This document shows, one piece after another, positions 7,719-33,679 of a DNA stretch of 47,945 nt. A model generated the notes under the pieces. The model ran no database searches and had not been told where the DNA came from. It saw only the letters and a program-made list of their open reading frames with translations. The position numbers were made by a program, and so were the translations under genes. This stretch comes from Fidelibacterota bacterium (GTDB lineage: Bacteria; Fidelibacterota; Marinisomatia; SCGC-AAA003-L08; JACNLC01). Within the stretch, counting starts at the first letter, position 1. The number at the start of each line of letters is the position of its first letter. The stretch lies in NCBI GenBank assembly GCA_014381725.1, contig JACNLC010000034.1, forward strand, positions 1-47,945, given 5' to 3'.

Positions 7719-7806
7719 AAAAAACCTCCGGTCGGAGGTAGGGTAAGTCAAAACTGACATCCTTTTTCCACCTCCCGGGATAGATTTAAAAGGAAATCTA
7801 TTGGGA
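7719..7806 (-). promoter_or_regulatory. PyrR-type transcription attenuator leader
   Basis: Read on the minus strand, three exclusive structures are visible. A terminator hairpin CCTCCG-AC-CGGAGG with six T follows (7738 to 7719). An antiterminator can form between GGAGGTGG (7775-7768) and CTACCTCC (7741-7734), eight pairs with one G-U. The anti-antiterminator, closed by ATCC (7781-7778) with GGAT (7762-7759), contains ATCCCGGGAGGT, which matches 12 of the 14 positions of the PyrR-binding consensus ARUCCNGNGAGGYU as I remember it. An additional 8-bp hairpin (7780-7787 with 7794-7801) lies upstream. Bound PyrR would favour termination when UMP is high. The structures are read from sequence; the mechanism is inferred from the family. 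Confidence 0.82.
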
Positions 7807-7822
7807 TAATTTACAGCTTTAA

Positions 7823-7828
7823 ATTATA
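7823..7828 (-). promoter_or_regulatory. Probable -10 box of the pyr operon
   Basis: On the minus strand a perfect TATAAT lies about 20 bases upstream of the attenuator structures. The -35 candidate is poor (TTAGTA, 18 bases away). Transcription starting near 7816 would include the whole attenuator. Confidence 0.45.
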
Positions 7829-7877
7829 ATGAATCTAATTTATTTTTACTAATGAGTGGATTAATGTAATTTATACT

Positions 7878-8963
7878 ATGAAGAAAATCCTAGATCTTTA
7901 TATTCTGAAACAATTTTTCGGTAAATTTATAGCATCAATGTCGGTGTTTACTATAATTTTTGTGATTGTAGATATTATTGATCATTTAGATAAATTTATA
8001 GATTCTGAAATCCCAACACATGATATTTTGAGATACTATTTTCACACAATTCCTTGGTTTATTAGCATTGGCTTACCGATGGCTTTATTACTATCAACTG
8101 TTTTTACATTTGGACTTCTTCAAAGAAGGAACGAAATAACTGCAATAAAAGCTTCAGGTATTAGCATCCGTAGAATTAGTTTGTCGCTTTTGATTGTTGG
8201 AGTTGTTGTTAGTATTTTATCCTTTTATTTTGATAATCTTGTTGTTACAACACATTTCCAAAAACGAACAGAGATAGAAGAGCAATACTTCAGAAAATCA
8301 AGATCTCATAAAAAAATTAAAAAAATTGATATTTACAGACAGATTGAAAAAGATAAAATACTTGTTATCAAACAGTTTTCATATAAGTCCAATGCAGCTT
8401 ACAACATTTCTATTCAACAGTTTGATGATGGAAATTTAATATTTCGACTTGATGCACCAGTTATGGAATGGGATCAAAATTTAGAAAAATGGAAGCTCAA
8501 AGATTTCAATGTAAGGAAGTGGGAAAATGAAAAACTACTTTTTTCACATTTTTCATCTGATACTTTGATTAATGTAAATTTTAGTCCTGTTGATCTTACA
8601 AAAGAATCAGTCAAACCGGAAGAAATGAACTATTGGGAACTTGCAGGGTTTGTTGAAAAGCTCAAATTAAATGGAATCAAAGATCCAAGATGGGCCGTAA
8701 ATCTTCATTTTAAAACTGCATTTGCTTGCACAAGTTTCATTATGATATTATTTGGATTATCTTTATCAATTGGAAAACCACGAAGTAATATGGCTGTTGG
8801 AATGGGAATTAGTATTTTTGTGATTTTACTATATTATGCTGTATTAAAATTTGGACAATCTCTTGGTTATAAAAGCATAGCATCTCCTTTTGTATCAGTT
8901 TGGTTTGGGAATTTTATATTTATTATCTTGGGGATTTATTTGTTTAGGAAAACACGAACTTAG
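7878..8963 (+). CDS. LptF/LptG family permease (YjgP/YjgQ)
   Basis: 361 residues. N-terminal membrane segments (about residues 15-35, 55-80, 95-120) include the family pattern Leu-Asp-x-Tyr-Ile-Leu-Lys-Gln-Phe and Leu-Pro-Met-Ala-Leu-Leu-Leu-Ser, followed by Ile-Thr-Ala-Ile-Lys-Ala-Ser-Gly. A periplasmic beta-jellyroll-like domain occupies about 125-260, and three more membrane segments end the protein. Such proteins form the inner-membrane part of the LptB2FG lipopolysaccharide exporter. Whether this is the F or the G subunit cannot be told. It is a single gene, divergent from pyrR, with no second permease beside it. Confidence 0.88.
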   Translation: MKKILDLYILKQFFGKFIASMSVFTIIFVIVDIIDHLDKFIDSEIPTHDILRYYFHTIPWFISIGLPMALLLSTVFTFGLLQRRNEITAIKASGISIRRISLSLLIVGVVVSILSFYFDNLVVTTHFQKRTEIEEQYFRKSRSHKKIKKIDIYRQIEKDKILVIKQFSYKSNAAYNISIQQFDDGNLIFRLDAPVMEWDQNLEKWKLKDFNVRKWENEKLLFSHFSSDTLINVNFSPVDLTKESVKPEEMNYWELAGFVEKLKLNGIKDPRWAVNLHFKTAFACTSFIMILFGLSLSIGKPRSNMAVGMGISIFVILLYYAVLKFGQSLGYKSIASPFVSVWFGNFIFIILGIYLFRKTRT

Positions 8964-22878: not shown

Positions 22879-23952
22879 ATGGGAAAAACATATAAACAAG
22901 TATTAGCATTAGTTTTCATAACAATTATTCTATCAGGTTTGCGGTTTTTGTCGCTGGATGATGGATTCACCCTAATAAAGAAAAATAAGAATGTTGTATC
23001 AAATGGAATTGTATCTACTTCATTTGAGACTCGCCTAAAAACAATTATCAAGACTGAATATTCTGAACCCCAAATTATAGAGATTCAATTTGCTAAATAT
23101 CTTTACGATAATCAATCAGCAATTTTTATTGATTCAAGAGATTCTATCGAATTCAACGATAGGCATATAAAAAATGCTATCAACATTTCTTATGAAGATG
23201 AATATTGTAGCTCTATTGAGGATTTGAATAAGTCTGAAATATTTGTTATTTATTGTAGTGGATTTGAATGTGATTTGAGCTTAGAGTTAGCAGAATATCT
23301 CGTATATGATGAGGATTTCAAAAAAATTCTAGTATTTGAAGAAGGATTACAAGGATGGCTAGAAAATGAGTTTCCTACTGAAAATGGAGAAATAATTCGA
23401 TACCCTGAAACTAACAGCTATAAAAATTACATTATGATTATTCTGTATAGTTTAATTATTTTCATTGGATTGATATACTTTTATTTTCCGAGGTTAAGAA
23501 ATAAAGGGTTTCATTTAAATAAATTCACAATTCAAATTTGCAGATTAGTTTTAGGAGTCCTTTTCATATATGCTAGTCTTGATAAAATAATAAATCCTGT
23601 TGAGTTTTCTGATTTAATTGATAATTATCATTTTACTCCAGTAATTCTAAATAACTTAATCGCATTATTTATACCGTGGATAGAAATGATACTTGGTCTT
23701 TGTCTAGTGTTTGGAGTATTTTTGGAGGGTGTCACTGTACTAACAATTGCCTTGTACGGTTTTTTTATACTATTAATATTTCAAGCAGTAATTCGTGGGA
23801 TTGATGTTCATTGTGGATGTTTTAGTGTAACGGGTTTAAATGAAAATACTAATTTTCAGCTTGAGTTGATTAAAAGAATATTTGAAGATTTACTACTATT
23901 AGGAATGGCAATAATCGTATGGATTAGTACAAGTTCAAAAAACAAAGGATAA
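22879..23952 (+). CDS. Rhodanese-MauE/DoxX fusion membrane protein
   Basis: 357 residues. A membrane anchor (8-27) precedes an extracytoplasmic rhodanese domain (about 65-175) with Phe-Ile-Asp-Ser-Arg-Asp and the active-site loop Tyr-Cys-Ser-Gly-Phe-Glu-Cys; the first Cys aligns with the sulfur-carrying Cys. Four further membrane segments (about 185-205, 215-240, 255-300, 330-350) form a MauE/DoxX-like domain with His-Cys-Gly-Cys-Phe, a motif common in MauE-type proteins that help thiol-disulfide chemistry. The stop lies one base before the selenoprotein start, so the two are one operon. No clear ribosome site; ATG at 22879 gives the anchor. Confidence 0.8.
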   Translation: MGKTYKQVLALVFITIILSGLRFLSLDDGFTLIKKNKNVVSNGIVSTSFETRLKTIIKTEYSEPQIIEIQFAKYLYDNQSAIFIDSRDSIEFNDRHIKNAINISYEDEYCSSIEDLNKSEIFVIYCSGFECDLSLELAEYLVYDEDFKKILVFEEGLQGWLENEFPTENGEIIRYPETNSYKNYIMIILYSLIIFIGLIYFYFPRLRNKGFHLNKFTIQICRLVLGVLFIYASLDKIINPVEFSDLIDNYHFTPVILNNLIALFIPWIEMILGLCLVFGVFLEGVTVLTIALYGFFILLIFQAVIRGIDVHCGCFSVTGLNENTNFQLELIKRIFEDLLLLGMAIIVWISTSSKNKG

Positions 23953-23953
23953 A

Positions 23954-25117
23954 ATGAAGAAGAATTATAACAAGTTATTTATTTTTGCATTTATGCTGTT
24001 CGGTGTATTTGTTTTTGCTGAAGAGGTTGTTTCAAATCAAATTACTATATTTGGATCTACGAACCTTCACGGTGAAACAGAACCTTGTGGCTGAAAGAAA
24101 AAACCTTTGGGCGGTCTTGCCCGAAAAGCTACTATTGTTGATAAAGTAAAGTCAAATGGATCTTCAGTATTTATTGCAGATGCAGGAAATTTATTTTTCA
24201 AAACTGATAAATATCAGTCAGAAATGCTTAGTGACAAAGCAAAAGTTAGTGCTGATGTTATTTTAGAATCGTTTAACAAAATAGGTTGTGACGCTATTAC
24301 TGTTGGATCAAAAGATTTTGCATTAGGGCTAGATCATTTACTTGGTTTGCAACAAAAAGCGGAATTTCCTTTCTTATCAGCGAATATTAAGGACAAAACA
24401 GGAAATCTAATTTTTGACCCATATACTATTGTGAACAAAGATGGAATTGATGTTGGTTTCATTGGATTAACTTCGATTTTTCAACACAATGACTTACAGG
24501 TTGACGATCCTTTTACAGCTCTCGATAATGTAATTGAAATGGTTCAAGATGGTTCTGATATTATTGTTTTATTGTTCCACGCTGACAAAAAGGATATTGG
24601 CGAATTTAACAAGAGAGATTATCCTATAAACCTAGTATTGCAAAGTAAAATTACAAGAAGATCTAGAGATGGAGGAACTGGCAAAATTCCAGTGTTTACT
24701 TGTGGTAGTAGAGGTAAATATTTATACAAATTCGATTTCACGGTTAGTGAAGGTGATATTCCATTTATAGATACATCAAAAAAAACTGAAGCTATTAGAG
24801 AAGCTAGAAGACAAATAAAAAGCTATGAGAGAAAAATTCAGCGAACACCTAAAAACTCTAAACAATACAAGCAGAAAATCATTGAATTTGAAACAGAAAT
24901 TGGACTTTTAGAAACGGAAATTAATAATGCTGAAAATAAACTAGAAATTGAAATTATAGAATTAGATAAACACATTGTTGATAGGCCAGATATTTTACAG
25001 ATTGTTAGTACTGGAAAAGATAAAATTGAAGCTTTAGGTGGAAGTAAAAATAAGAGACAAGAAGTAAAATCTAACAAAAAAACAAAGTCAGCAGTTCCTT
25101 TATTAGATCAGAATTAG
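23954..25117 (+). CDS. Selenocysteine-containing exported metallophosphatase-like protein
   Basis: 387 residues when the in-frame UGA at 24092-24094 is read as selenocysteine (residue 47). Residues 1-22 are a signal peptide ending Phe-Ala-Glu-Glu. The body follows the 5'-nucleotidase/metallophosphatase fold (Asn-Leu-His-Gly at 37-40, Leu-Ser-Ala-Asn-Ile, Gly-Phe-Ile-Gly-Leu-Thr-Ser), then a coiled coil (about 275-340) and a Lys-rich tail. The redox motif is Cys45-Gly46-Sec47 followed by Pro-Leu-Gly-Gly-Leu-Ala-Arg. In relatives I remember, this reads Pro-Cys-Gly-Cys with a Gly-Gly-Leu-Ala-Arg tail, so UGA replaces a Cys. Both sides of the UGA are in one frame and belong to one protein family. 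A nonsense mutation is the alternative. Confidence 0.85.
24104..24129 (+). promoter_or_regulatory. Candidate bacterial SECIS hairpin
   Basis: Ten bases after the UGA begins a hairpin CTTT-GGGC (24105-24112), loop GGTCTT (24113-24118), GCCC (24119-24122), a GA bulge, and AAAG (24125-24128). The loop is 18 bases after the UGA and contains GGUCU, the sequence I recall as critical for SelB binding in the E. coli fdhF element. It also encodes the conserved Gly-Gly-Leu-Ala, so its shape is partly constrained by protein. Confidence 0.8.
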
Positions 25118-30298: not shown

Positions 30299-31417
30299 TT
30301 ATTGTCCTAAAAAATGTTTCTTAATTGAATCTTTTAATGCACTTGATAAAAATGTTGGTACTGCATTTCCAATTTGTAAATTTTTATCACTTCTTGTACC
30401 ATAGAAAACATAATTATCTGGAAAACATTGTATTCTTGCTCCCTCTCTTGTCGTAAGTGGCCTTGGCGCTTTCGGATGAATACATCTTGAAGATGAAGGA
30501 GTACTTAAATTTCTTGTAATTGTTGTACTTGGTCTATTCCACCAAAGCCTACAATAAGTATTTGCAAAACCACTTTTTGGTCTTAATTCTTCAGGTAAAT
30601 CATTTGGAGTTCCGCCATCAGGAAGTTTTTCCATAATCTTCACTAAATTCTCATTATTATTTGGAGCGTTATGATCCATTAATTTTTCATGAGCATTTTT
30701 TCTCATCAATTTTTGAAATTCATTTGCTGGTTCAGTAGAATATTCAAAACTTTCTTCACTGCTTTTAATAAATGGAAGGTCGCTTATCGCTTCTGCCAAA
30801 GTTAAATATGGTTTTAACTCTTGTGTCAAAAGGGTTTGCCCTTCTTCTGGATTATAGTGTGTTGGCTCAGGATAACTAAATTTGGAATTAAGTTTTGTTC
30901 CTATCATTATAACTCTTTCTCTTACTTGCGGAGCTCCATAATCTGCAGAATTAAAAACTTTATAAACAACTTTATATCCTAATGATTCAAACAAAGAGAT
31001 TATTGTTTTTAATAATTCTCCACCTAGCATAGATAAAAGACCTTTTACATTCTCAAATAAGAAGACTTTTGGATCTATCTCTTTGAGAATCCTATAATAC
31101 TCTTGAAACAATTTACCTTTTGGGTCATCTATCAATCTTTTACCAACTGTTGAATATGATTGACATGGTGGTCCTCCAACTATTAAATCAATTTCCCCTT
31201 TTTTTATTCCGAAATCTTTTTCTAAGTCTTCAATTCCAAATTCTTTAATATCTTTGCAATAAACTTTTACAGAAGGATGATTTAGCTCATATGCTTTTGC
31301 CATGTTCGGTAATATTTCATTTGCTGCAATAATTTCAAAATTATCATTATGAGCAAAGCCAAAACTTAATCCTCCAACTCCTGCAAATAAATCTATAATT
31401 TTAATTTTCTTAGCCAT
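30299..31417 (-). CDS. DNA (cytosine-5)-methyltransferase
   Basis: 372 residues. All main C5-MTase motifs appear in order: I Asp-Leu-Phe-Ala-Gly-Val-Gly-Gly, IV Gly-Gly-Pro-Pro-Cys-Gln-Ser-Tyr-Ser (catalytic Cys near residue 84), VI Glu-Asn-Val-Lys-Gly, VIII Gln-Val-Arg-Glu-Arg-Val, then a variable target-recognition part and IX/X Gln-Ile-Gly-Asn-Ala-Val-Pro. The recognition sequence cannot be read. It lies nine bases after the broken endonuclease gene, as in a type II restriction-modification unit. Confidence 0.95.
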   Translation of the reverse strand: MAKKIKIIDLFAGVGGLSFGFAHNDNFEIIAANEILPNMAKAYELNHPSVKVYCKDIKEFGIEDLEKDFGIKKGEIDLIVGGPPCQSYSTVGKRLIDDPKGKLFQEYYRILKEIDPKVFLFENVKGLLSMLGGELLKTIISLFESLGYKVVYKVFNSADYGAPQVRERVIMIGTKLNSKFSYPEPTHYNPEEGQTLLTQELKPYLTLAEAISDLPFIKSSEESFEYSTEPANEFQKLMRKNAHEKLMDHNAPNNNENLVKIMEKLPDGGTPNDLPEELRPKSGFANTYCRLWWNRPSTTITRNLSTPSSSRCIHPKAPRPLTTREGARIQCFPDNYVFYGTRSDKNLQIGNAVPTFLSSALKDSIKKHFLGQ

Positions 31418-31426
31418 AGTTATGCT

Positions 31427-32220
31427 TTATGAAAAAGATAAATCAGTATATTTAGGAGGATTTTCAGTTAGTTTCCAAGCAAAATAATTTTGATCTATAT
31501 TAAAAACTGTTTGACCTTCCATTTGTTGTCTTGTTATCCAGTTAACACTATCATCATCAATTTCATCTATTTTTACGAAAGCGACTTGCCCATTAAATAA
31601 ATCAAAATGAATTACCATTGAAGAAATGTTTTCTTCACTTTTGATTTTTATAGCTTCCAAAACTTTATGTTGTTTAATGTCGTTAATCCCCTGAAATCCT
31701 GATTGAACTTCAACTCTAACTTTTTCACCATTTTTTAAATTGATTTGTAAATCTGCTTTTGGTGTTCTTTTGAAAGTCTCAATATTTACTAAATCGTCAT
31801 CTCCGATTAAATCGATATTCTCAATATCAACTTCAAAAACTTGACTTAAAGCATTTAAAAATATGAGGAAATTACAAAACCACGCATCCATGAAAAATAA
31901 ACCCCTTCTGGTCTTCTGCCTTGATTGTTTAATCTTACAATGATGTTATGAGTTTTTAATTTGTTAAAAACTGTTTTTATGTTTTCATCACAAAACAAAT
32001 CTAAGTCTTCAACTTTTATATCTTCAACAACTAAATCATTTATTTTTGTAACGATTTTAAGAAGTCTATCATTAAGTAAATCAATATAATTATAATCAAC
32101 TGTTGGAACTATATCTTTTGCTGCAAAAAATGCCTTAACTCCATTTTGGTTTGTAAAGCCAAGTATTTCTCTATATTCCTTGAAATATTTTGTATCTATT
32201 AGTGTCATATTGTTTCCCAT
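31427..32220 (-). pseudogene. Type II restriction endonuclease, split by a one-base frameshift
   Basis: Two overlapping frames, 32220-31855 (121 residues) and 31891-31427 (154 residues), look like halves of one protein of about 264 residues. In the overlap a run of five T stands; one added T would fuse Ser-Ser-Tyr-Phe directly to Leu-Asn-Ala-Leu-Ser. The C-terminal half has a candidate nuclease core: Pro-Lys-Ala-Asp-Leu-Gln-Ile, then Val-Arg-Val-Glu-Val-Gln-Ser-Gly, a PD-(D/E)xK-like arrangement with Gln in place of Lys. Family not recognised; assignment rests on this core and on the methyltransferase beside it. A sequencing error in the T run is equally possible. Confidence 0.65.
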
Positions 32221-32539
32221 AAAAAGTAAAAGTTATTTGTATTATATAAGTTTTGTCTTTGTTGCAAGATTAAAATTCGTTTTCGTAGCGTAGCGGAGAA
32301 AACATCAGTTATCCCTCTTTTATATAAAAAAACAAATTCATTCCCCTTTTTAGAAAGCCTATCATTATTTTAAATCTTAGAAAAATATTTTTTGAATTGC
32401 ACATAATGTCTATATATACGACCTATGGCGTTTATTTTTCCCTTATGTCTTTGAAAGAATTACAATATGTTTTTATTGTGTATTCTATATCTTTTTTTAA
32501 GTAACAAATTCTTATATTCATCCAAGGTCAGCATGATTA
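32221..32539. other. AT-rich intergenic stretch in the accessory region
   Basis: About 320 bases without a convincing gene. It holds an imperfect hairpin GTTTTC/GAAAAC (32279-32284 with 32298-32303) whose loop contains a doubled CGTAG, and otherwise very AT-rich DNA that probably includes the minus-strand promoter of the restriction-modification genes. Confidence 0.5.
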
Positions 32540-32713
32540 AATTTAGTCAAATTCTCTTGTATCATCAAAACATTATTAATGCATAAAAATGCAATAAATT
32601 TACTTATGATAAAATTATCGTCAGGGTTCAAATATCTAAAGTAAAATAGGGTCTTGTACTCCTGCTTGCTCAAAACCTCTTGCTCTAAGTGCCCAAGAAT
32701 CACATTGTCCGCA
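32540..32713 (-). repeat. Direct repeat A: displaced copy of the queC 3' end
   Basis: Matches 33771-33933 along its length, with scattered substitutions and an 11-base internal addition. On the minus strand 32713-32639 still reads the last 25 codons of queC and its stop, Cys-Gly-Gln-Cys-Asp-Ser then Trp where queC has Cys, ending Gln-Asp-Pro-Ile-Leu-Leu. It is a gene fragment, not a working gene. Confidence 0.9.
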
Positions 32714-32797
32714 TTACATAGCCATTTGCAGAAACCAAATAGTCTGTAATGTGATGTTCTAATCATTTTTCTTTAGTATCTGAACTCATAATCTTTG

Positions 32798-33679
32798 TTA
32801 ACTTTCCTCATAATAATACGAGTAATCAATTCCTTTCATAAACATTTCTTGGTTGTCGATTTGATTAGTTAGTGCATTTTTTAGCAACTTTTTTAAGATG
32901 TTGCTGTTTGCTGAACTTTTTACCATTGCGTTCATATAATCTGCTTTGCTTATTTTGCTCCAATCAATGCAATATTTCAGGCGTTTTTTCAATATCAAAT
33001 CCAGCCATATACGGGTAGTTCTGCCGTTGCCTTCCATAAATGGATGTGCAATGTTCATTTCTATATATTTCTCAACAATTTCATCAAATGTATTTTCTGG
33101 CATTTCTTCTATTTGTTTTAATGTAGCACCAAGGAATTTTGAAACTGCAAATCGAAATCCGCCTTTCGAAATGTTTTTTTTTCTGATTTGTCCGGCAAAA
33201 TCGTACAGCCCACCAAACAAATAAGCGTGAATTTGTTGTAACCCTTTGGTTGTGCCAACCTCTATGCTGTTGATAAAAGAACTTTCAAAAAGTGCATAGG
33301 CCTTTGTTTTGCTTTTTCCATCAATGCTTTCATCGCTAAAGGTAAACCATTCGATGAAACGGTTGGCTTTTGTTCCGGGAAAACTTTTACCTAAAGTAAT
33401 TATACCATTGTAATCAAGCATATCGCTCATTCTCTTTTTACCATCAGGTGCAAGAAGTTTCAACTGGGTAGTGGCACTAACCAGTTGGCTGTTTTCTCTC
33501 TTTAACTTGGCTTTAAGGTATTTCCAATAGTTGCGAGTTTTTGTATAGTCGTTTTGGTTGGTAAGAACGGCTACTATATCTAATACAGAAAACCACCACT
33601 TGGAGTTTTGCTCATCCCATAAAGCCCGTACTTCGCGGTCGTCAAAAAAGCGTATGGATATTTTTTGCTGTTCGTTCAT
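32798..33679 (-). CDS. BRO-N / Fic-domain protein
   Basis: 293 residues. The N-terminal 110 residues (Phe-Phe-Asp-Asp-Arg-Glu-Val-Arg, Trp-Trp-Phe-Ser-Val-Leu-Asp-Ile-Val) look like a BRO-N-type domain found in phage antirepressors. The rest is a Fic domain with the full catalytic motif [12 protein letters not shown] near residue 214, and [14 protein letters not shown] before it. Fic proteins usually transfer AMP to target proteins. I see no Ser/Thr-x3-Glu-Gly inhibitory helix. Its ATG overlaps the stop of a 29-codon frame upstream. It stands between direct repeats of the queC end, so it is probably imported. Confidence 0.85.

Follow-up and report, generated by a model that had tools for sequence, protein, structure and literature searches.

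An in-frame UGA in an exported UshA-like protein

The window analyzed here, i.e., the whole stretch of 47,945 nt, corresponds to contig C77 of a 2.18-Mb Fidelibacterota genome (referred to as G000) that is 98% complete. Its forward strand carries a 387-aa reading frame from the ATG at 23954 to a TAG at 25117 that, as stated in the initial annotation, is broken solely by a TGA at positions 24092–24094, corresponding to residue 47. Based on its sequence, profile searches, and a structural model, we assign this gene (23954–25117) to the UshA-like selenoproteins, with a putative selenocysteine (Sec) at residue 47, an export signal peptide recognizable from the sequence, and no C-terminal cytochrome c domain. 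The intact frame and the comparison with relatives indicate that the UGA is read as Sec within a Pro-Cys-Gly-Sec motif, which is located after the signal peptide and is surrounded by the residues STNLHGETEPCG-U-KKKPLGGLARK.

Directly upstream and on the same strand (22879–23952) lies a gene whose product joins an exported, membrane-anchored rhodanese domain (CSGFEC) to a membrane domain resembling MauE/DoxX, which carries the motif HCGCF. A ribosome-binding-like AAAGGA, read from the sequence, precedes the ATG at 23954 and is embedded in the 3′ end of this upstream gene (23942–23950, forward strand). As the partner gene ends one base before the ATG, the two genes are probably co-translated, and translational coupling between them is likely. 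Elsewhere in the window, a gene for a C5 cytosine DNA methylase is found together with small genes and a nearby Fic-domain protein (30299–33679), a region which is possibly a restriction or toxin island.

UGA serves as an ordinary stop codon in four of the 21 neighboring genes that were checked, indicating that recoding is local, as had been proposed from the sequence. A genome-wide use of UGA as another sense codon (Trp or Gly) would account for the single in-frame UGA and for nothing further. It conflicts with the four neighboring genes that terminate at UGA, with the complete Sec machinery of the genome, and with the presence of Cys instead of Trp or Gly at this column in relatives, and we consider it exceedingly improbable.

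Sec machinery and distribution of Sec and Cys forms

Searches of the genome for selA, selB, selC, and selD, which the initial annotation had suggested as a check, identified all four components, i.e., selB with 379 bits, selA with 524 bits, tRNA-Sec with 72 bits, and selD with 391 bits, every one above its curated cut-off. The candidate tRNA-Sec, read by eye on its own strand, shows a UCA anticodon within CUUCAAA. The selD gene itself (contig C13, 56121–57044; locus L111) also contains an in-frame UGA at the Sec position of Sec-containing SelD proteins (GAG-U-ACK) and is an internal positive control for Sec decoding in this organism.

Conservation of the UGA was analyzed in 60 genomes, comprising G000 and relatives of the same class. 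Where named, the relatives are listed as Candidatus Marinimicrobia/Neomarinimicrobiota, a phylum that now carries the NCBI name Fidelibacterota. At the column of residue 47, 48 genomes have TGA and six have only Cys, while the protein is absent from six. A contig scan with a Cys pattern, which returns Cys forms only, provided alignment rows. The initial annotation had pointed to relatives with Cys in place of the UGA in Pro-Cys-Gly-UGA, and the six Cys genomes bear this out. A chance origin of the TGA was rejected, as it recurs at the same column in 48 of the 60 genomes of the class and is replaced by Cys in six.

If the UGA were an ordinary stop codon, a sequencing error, or the mark of a pseudogene, the gene would yield either an exported short peptide or a protein starting at TTG 24107, from which an open frame of 336 aa indeed extends (24107–25117). 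However, the 48 genomes with TGA at the same column conserve the protein on both sides of it and encode signal peptides upstream of it, Cys appears at the column only where the UGA is absent, and the loop of the hairpin described below is synonymously invariant. An ordinary stop is, in view of these observations, very improbable.

Of the 48 UGA genomes, 44 have a SelA hit above cut-off, versus one of the six Cys genomes (Fisher p = 2e-4, with related genomes counted repeatedly). The four UGA genomes without such a hit are incomplete assemblies or carry selA fragments, and five of the six Cys-form genomes lack selA. In the tree, Sec forms and Cys forms each cluster, and a minimum of three changes is needed to explain their distribution. 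If the root is placed on the sampled outgroup, at least two Sec-to-Cys replacements took place within the phylum, one in genome G010, where selA is kept, and one in a small-genome family (f6), where selA is lost. Apart from these single-site exchanges, two deviating paralogs were observed: a third copy in genome G028 (L062) retains C-x-C (CDC) instead of CGU, and one paralog in G044 (L071) lacks both reactive residues.

A conserved hairpin downstream of the UGA

Downstream of the UGA, folding, codon invariance, and covariation define a bacterial SECIS-like hairpin (24106–24125, forward strand) with the stem UUUGGGC/GCCCGAA and the loop GGUCUU. The loop starts 18 bases downstream of the UGA, exactly as initially described, and this spacing falls within the known range for bacterial SECIS elements. 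The codons of the loop, GGC GGU CUN, are shared by all 48 UGA genes but absent from the six Cys genes, though Gly-Gly-Leu is kept in nearly all of them. Codon entropy is 0.00 bits at the two loop glycines compared to 1.77–1.96 bits at other well-conserved glycine columns, and all four codons are in use at other conserved glycines of the same genes. Moreover, the two sides of the stem have both changed, with a covariation score that was matched by none of 500 shuffles, and the stem-loop occurs in two related shapes, one with a six-base and one with a five-base loop. Thus, the invariance of the loop codons and the covariation of the stem indicate that selection acts on the RNA.

Taken alone, the hairpin stands out only modestly from chance, with z = −1.6 to −2.2 in the window, and its folding energy relative to synonymous recodings distinguishes Sec from Cys forms only weakly (p = 0.05). 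Codon invariance and covariation are far more informative than folding energy. No SECIS family was matched by an Rfam scan of the window.

Because the UGA recurs at the same column, Cys homologs exist, selA, selB, selC, and selD are encoded in the genome, and the hairpin just 3′ of the UGA, with a G in its loop, is under selection as RNA, Sec insertion is strongly supported, and it is almost certain that residue 47 is selenocysteine. The proposal of a selenoprotein is therefore upheld by the Cys homologs, the Sec machinery, and the conserved, covarying hairpin. Neither a lack of Cys homologs aligning at residue 47 nor an absence of selB and selC, both named beforehand as grounds against it, was encountered. 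SelB and tRNA-Sec, together with the hairpin directly after the UGA, would place Sec at this position.

A short variant of a known selenoprotein family

The initial annotation had further suggested a new selenoprotein family, and this part did not hold. An UshA-like, COG0737, CxU selenoprotein was already listed in a Global Ocean Sampling study in 2008 with 76 Sec and 92 Cys sequences (PMC2398784) and is also included in two reviews (PMC9312934 and PMC13188914). Together with the existence of the NCBIfam model NF041198 (UshA-like (seleno)protein, UshA_like_PCGU), these earlier tabulations leave the notion of a new family unsupported.

The window protein matches NF041198 with E = 7e-66 over residues 12–377 (model positions 3–397 of 519) and has in common with it the PCG[UC] motif within an UshA-like domain, the position of this motif, and the fold. 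In contrast to the model, it lacks the C-terminal multiheme cytochrome c part (model positions about 398–519), and its score of 222.8 bits is below the curated threshold of 275. NF041198 matches all 40 aligned relatives, and in a survey of the phylum 207 of 245 genomes match at 1e-25, with at most one genome above the cut-off. The window gene is a short, cytochrome-less, phylum-wide variant of the known UshA-like selenoprotein (COG0737, PCGU), and some of the marine sequences from 2008 may be the same short form.

In one Cys homolog (locus L106), four CxxCH motifs are present, and NF041198 positions 376–518 fall on its C-terminus. A separate four-heme c554-type gene of G000, located among large multiheme cytochromes (contig C54, about 7730–8345; L154, 4731–5342), matches NF041198 positions 398–514, and this stand-alone cytochrome may represent a partner that was split off from the UshA-like protein.

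Two other models gave weak matches. NF049981 (UshA-like (seleno)protein family 2) likewise describes an UshA-like selenoprotein, but the window protein reaches only 33.9 bits against a cut-off of 140, and the motif of this family is listed as CxxU rather than CxU. The SoxB thiosulfohydrolase (TIGR04486) belongs to the same superfamily. Membership in it was rejected, as the score is 44 bits versus a cut-off of 550. No Sox genes were recognized in the gene cassette around the selenoprotein.

Loss of the two-metal site

The AF2 model of the protein (pLDDT 82) has YfkN and UshA as best PDB matches, and residues of about 275–325 are predicted to form two long helices. UshA and other 5′-nucleotidases (PDB 1USH, 3GVE, and CD73) have the metallophosphatase-domain fold in common with the window protein, but in contrast to it they carry two-metal ligands and a C-terminal nucleotide-binding domain. 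In UshA, the two-metal ligand set comprises D41, H43, D84, N116, H217, H252, and Q254. By profile alignment of 40 members, rather than by superposed coordinates, this set of UshA-type 5′-nucleotidases and metallophosphatases is not retained. Of the 40 members, 39 have N or S in place of D41 of motif I. H43 is varied, N116/H117 of motif III are replaced, mostly by S-K, and H252 of motif V is Ser in all 40. Asp76 and Gly78 do not vary, and 39 of the 40 members have Asp or Asn at residue 79; one Asp/Asn remains. Cys45, Gly46, and Sec/Cys47 are invariant among aligned members.

Based on the metal ligands, genuine nucleotidase activity was rejected. With the two-metal site lost, the protein is most likely not a phosphatase, and the alignment makes it quite probable that phosphatase activity as such has disappeared. 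Of the initial description as an exported metallophosphatase-like protein, export and the UshA fold stand, whereas the phosphatase label applies to the fold only, since the metal ligands are unconserved.

The protein could still be a metal-dependent phosphatase or a SoxB-like sulfur hydrolase in which Cys-Gly-Sec would provide new metal ligands instead of a redox center. The UshA/SoxB fold, the match of the SoxB model to 39 of the 40 members, the conservation of residues 76, 78, and 79, and a rhodanese partner compatible with sulfur chemistry all agree with such an enzyme. On the other hand, its remaining metal ligands are unconserved, Sec is in general rarely required for metal binding, and a membrane partner with a CGC motif suggests thiol redox chemistry, which together make a hydrolase unlikely. 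The protein is most likely an exported selenol-thiol redox protein rather than a phosphatase.

A conserved rhodanese/MauE neighborhood

Of the 48 Sec genomes, 42 encode a homolog of the rhodanese/MauE partner, in 40 cases adjacent to the selenoprotein gene, versus none of the 12 genomes without a Sec form (Fisher p = 1e-8). The partner homologs vary in that they are fused or split into two genes and lie either upstream or downstream of the selenoprotein. Genomes of family f4 as well as G058 keep the Sec form without adjacent rhodanese/MauE genes. The f4 genomes, which have a Sec form and no cassette, indicate that the partners are replaceable or losable and not essential to every member.

Among the known systems, TsoB (NF045694), a rhodanese/DsbD fusion-like selenoprotein, is weakly matched by the upstream partner. 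Both join a rhodanese to a membrane redox domain and belong to a selenoprotein system. TsoB is itself a selenoprotein, whereas the partner here carries Cys but no Sec, along with a membrane domain of the MauE/DoxX type. No description of the cassette was found in the open-licence literature searched, and the conserved neighborhood is apparently undescribed.

Other neighbor families, namely an antisense gene (F1), a short gene (F2), and F3, F5, and F6, were rejected as parts of the cassette, since each is conserved in part of the set only. Among the loci L135–L148 of class-level relatives, nine carry a gene for a conserved ~110-aa protein, which in several of them is encoded directly upstream of the selenoprotein; from its sequence, it reads like a putative SUI1/YciH-type translation factor.

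MauE participates in forming the disulfides of methylamine dehydrogenase, and proteins of the DoxX type are linked to thiosulfate:quinone oxidoreductase. On the basis of these known roles, we propose a periplasmic thiol/persulfide redox cassette that feeds the quinone pool. The reactive center would be the Cys-Gly-Sec pair, located in the loop that directly follows the first of the former metal motifs of an UshA fold that is retained although its two-metal phosphatase site is gone. This pair would alternate between a selenenylsulfide and a reduced state. Motifs and gene order suggest that a periplasmic sulfur or thiol compound serves as the substrate, from which the selenoprotein would draw electrons or sulfane sulfur, and the electrons might then pass through MauE into the membrane quinone pool.

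Alternatively, the Cys-Sec pair might serve at the cell surface in handling selenium, mercury, or a different metal ion, for storage or detoxification. Such a function would suit an exported protein with a Cys-x-Sec pair, and the rhodanese partner could carry selenium, but the conserved cassette contains no transporter or resistance gene, and we regard such a role as improbable.

Taken as a whole, the best explanation, to which we assign a probability of about 0.6, is an exported selenoprotein of known kind with Sec at residue 47, in which a non-phosphatase Cys-Gly-Sec redox center would deliver electrons via MauE to quinone. More tentatively, the metal-stripped phosphatase fold acting as a Cys-Gly-Sec enzyme, the exported rhodanese, and the MauE-type protein might constitute a Fidelibacterota-wide periplasmic cassette in which sulfane sulfur or thiols are oxidized, with the electrons going to the quinone pool.

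The novelty lies in a phylum-wide short form of the selenoprotein, from which the usual metal site has disappeared and which is usually found beside two sulfur- and thiol-redox genes. A known but uncharacterized selenoprotein is thereby extended to the entire marine phylum Fidelibacterota (Marinimicrobia), in which it is almost universal, with 207 of the 245 surveyed genomes matching, and mostly present in its Sec form. Because the NF041198 cut-off misses nearly all members from this phylum, standard annotation probably yields split or truncated genes for them. The genome set also documents the replacement of Sec by Cys together with selA loss in small-genome marine lineages. With its metal site lost and rhodanese/MauE proteins as partners, the protein labeled “phosphatase-like” becomes the subject of a testable redox hypothesis.
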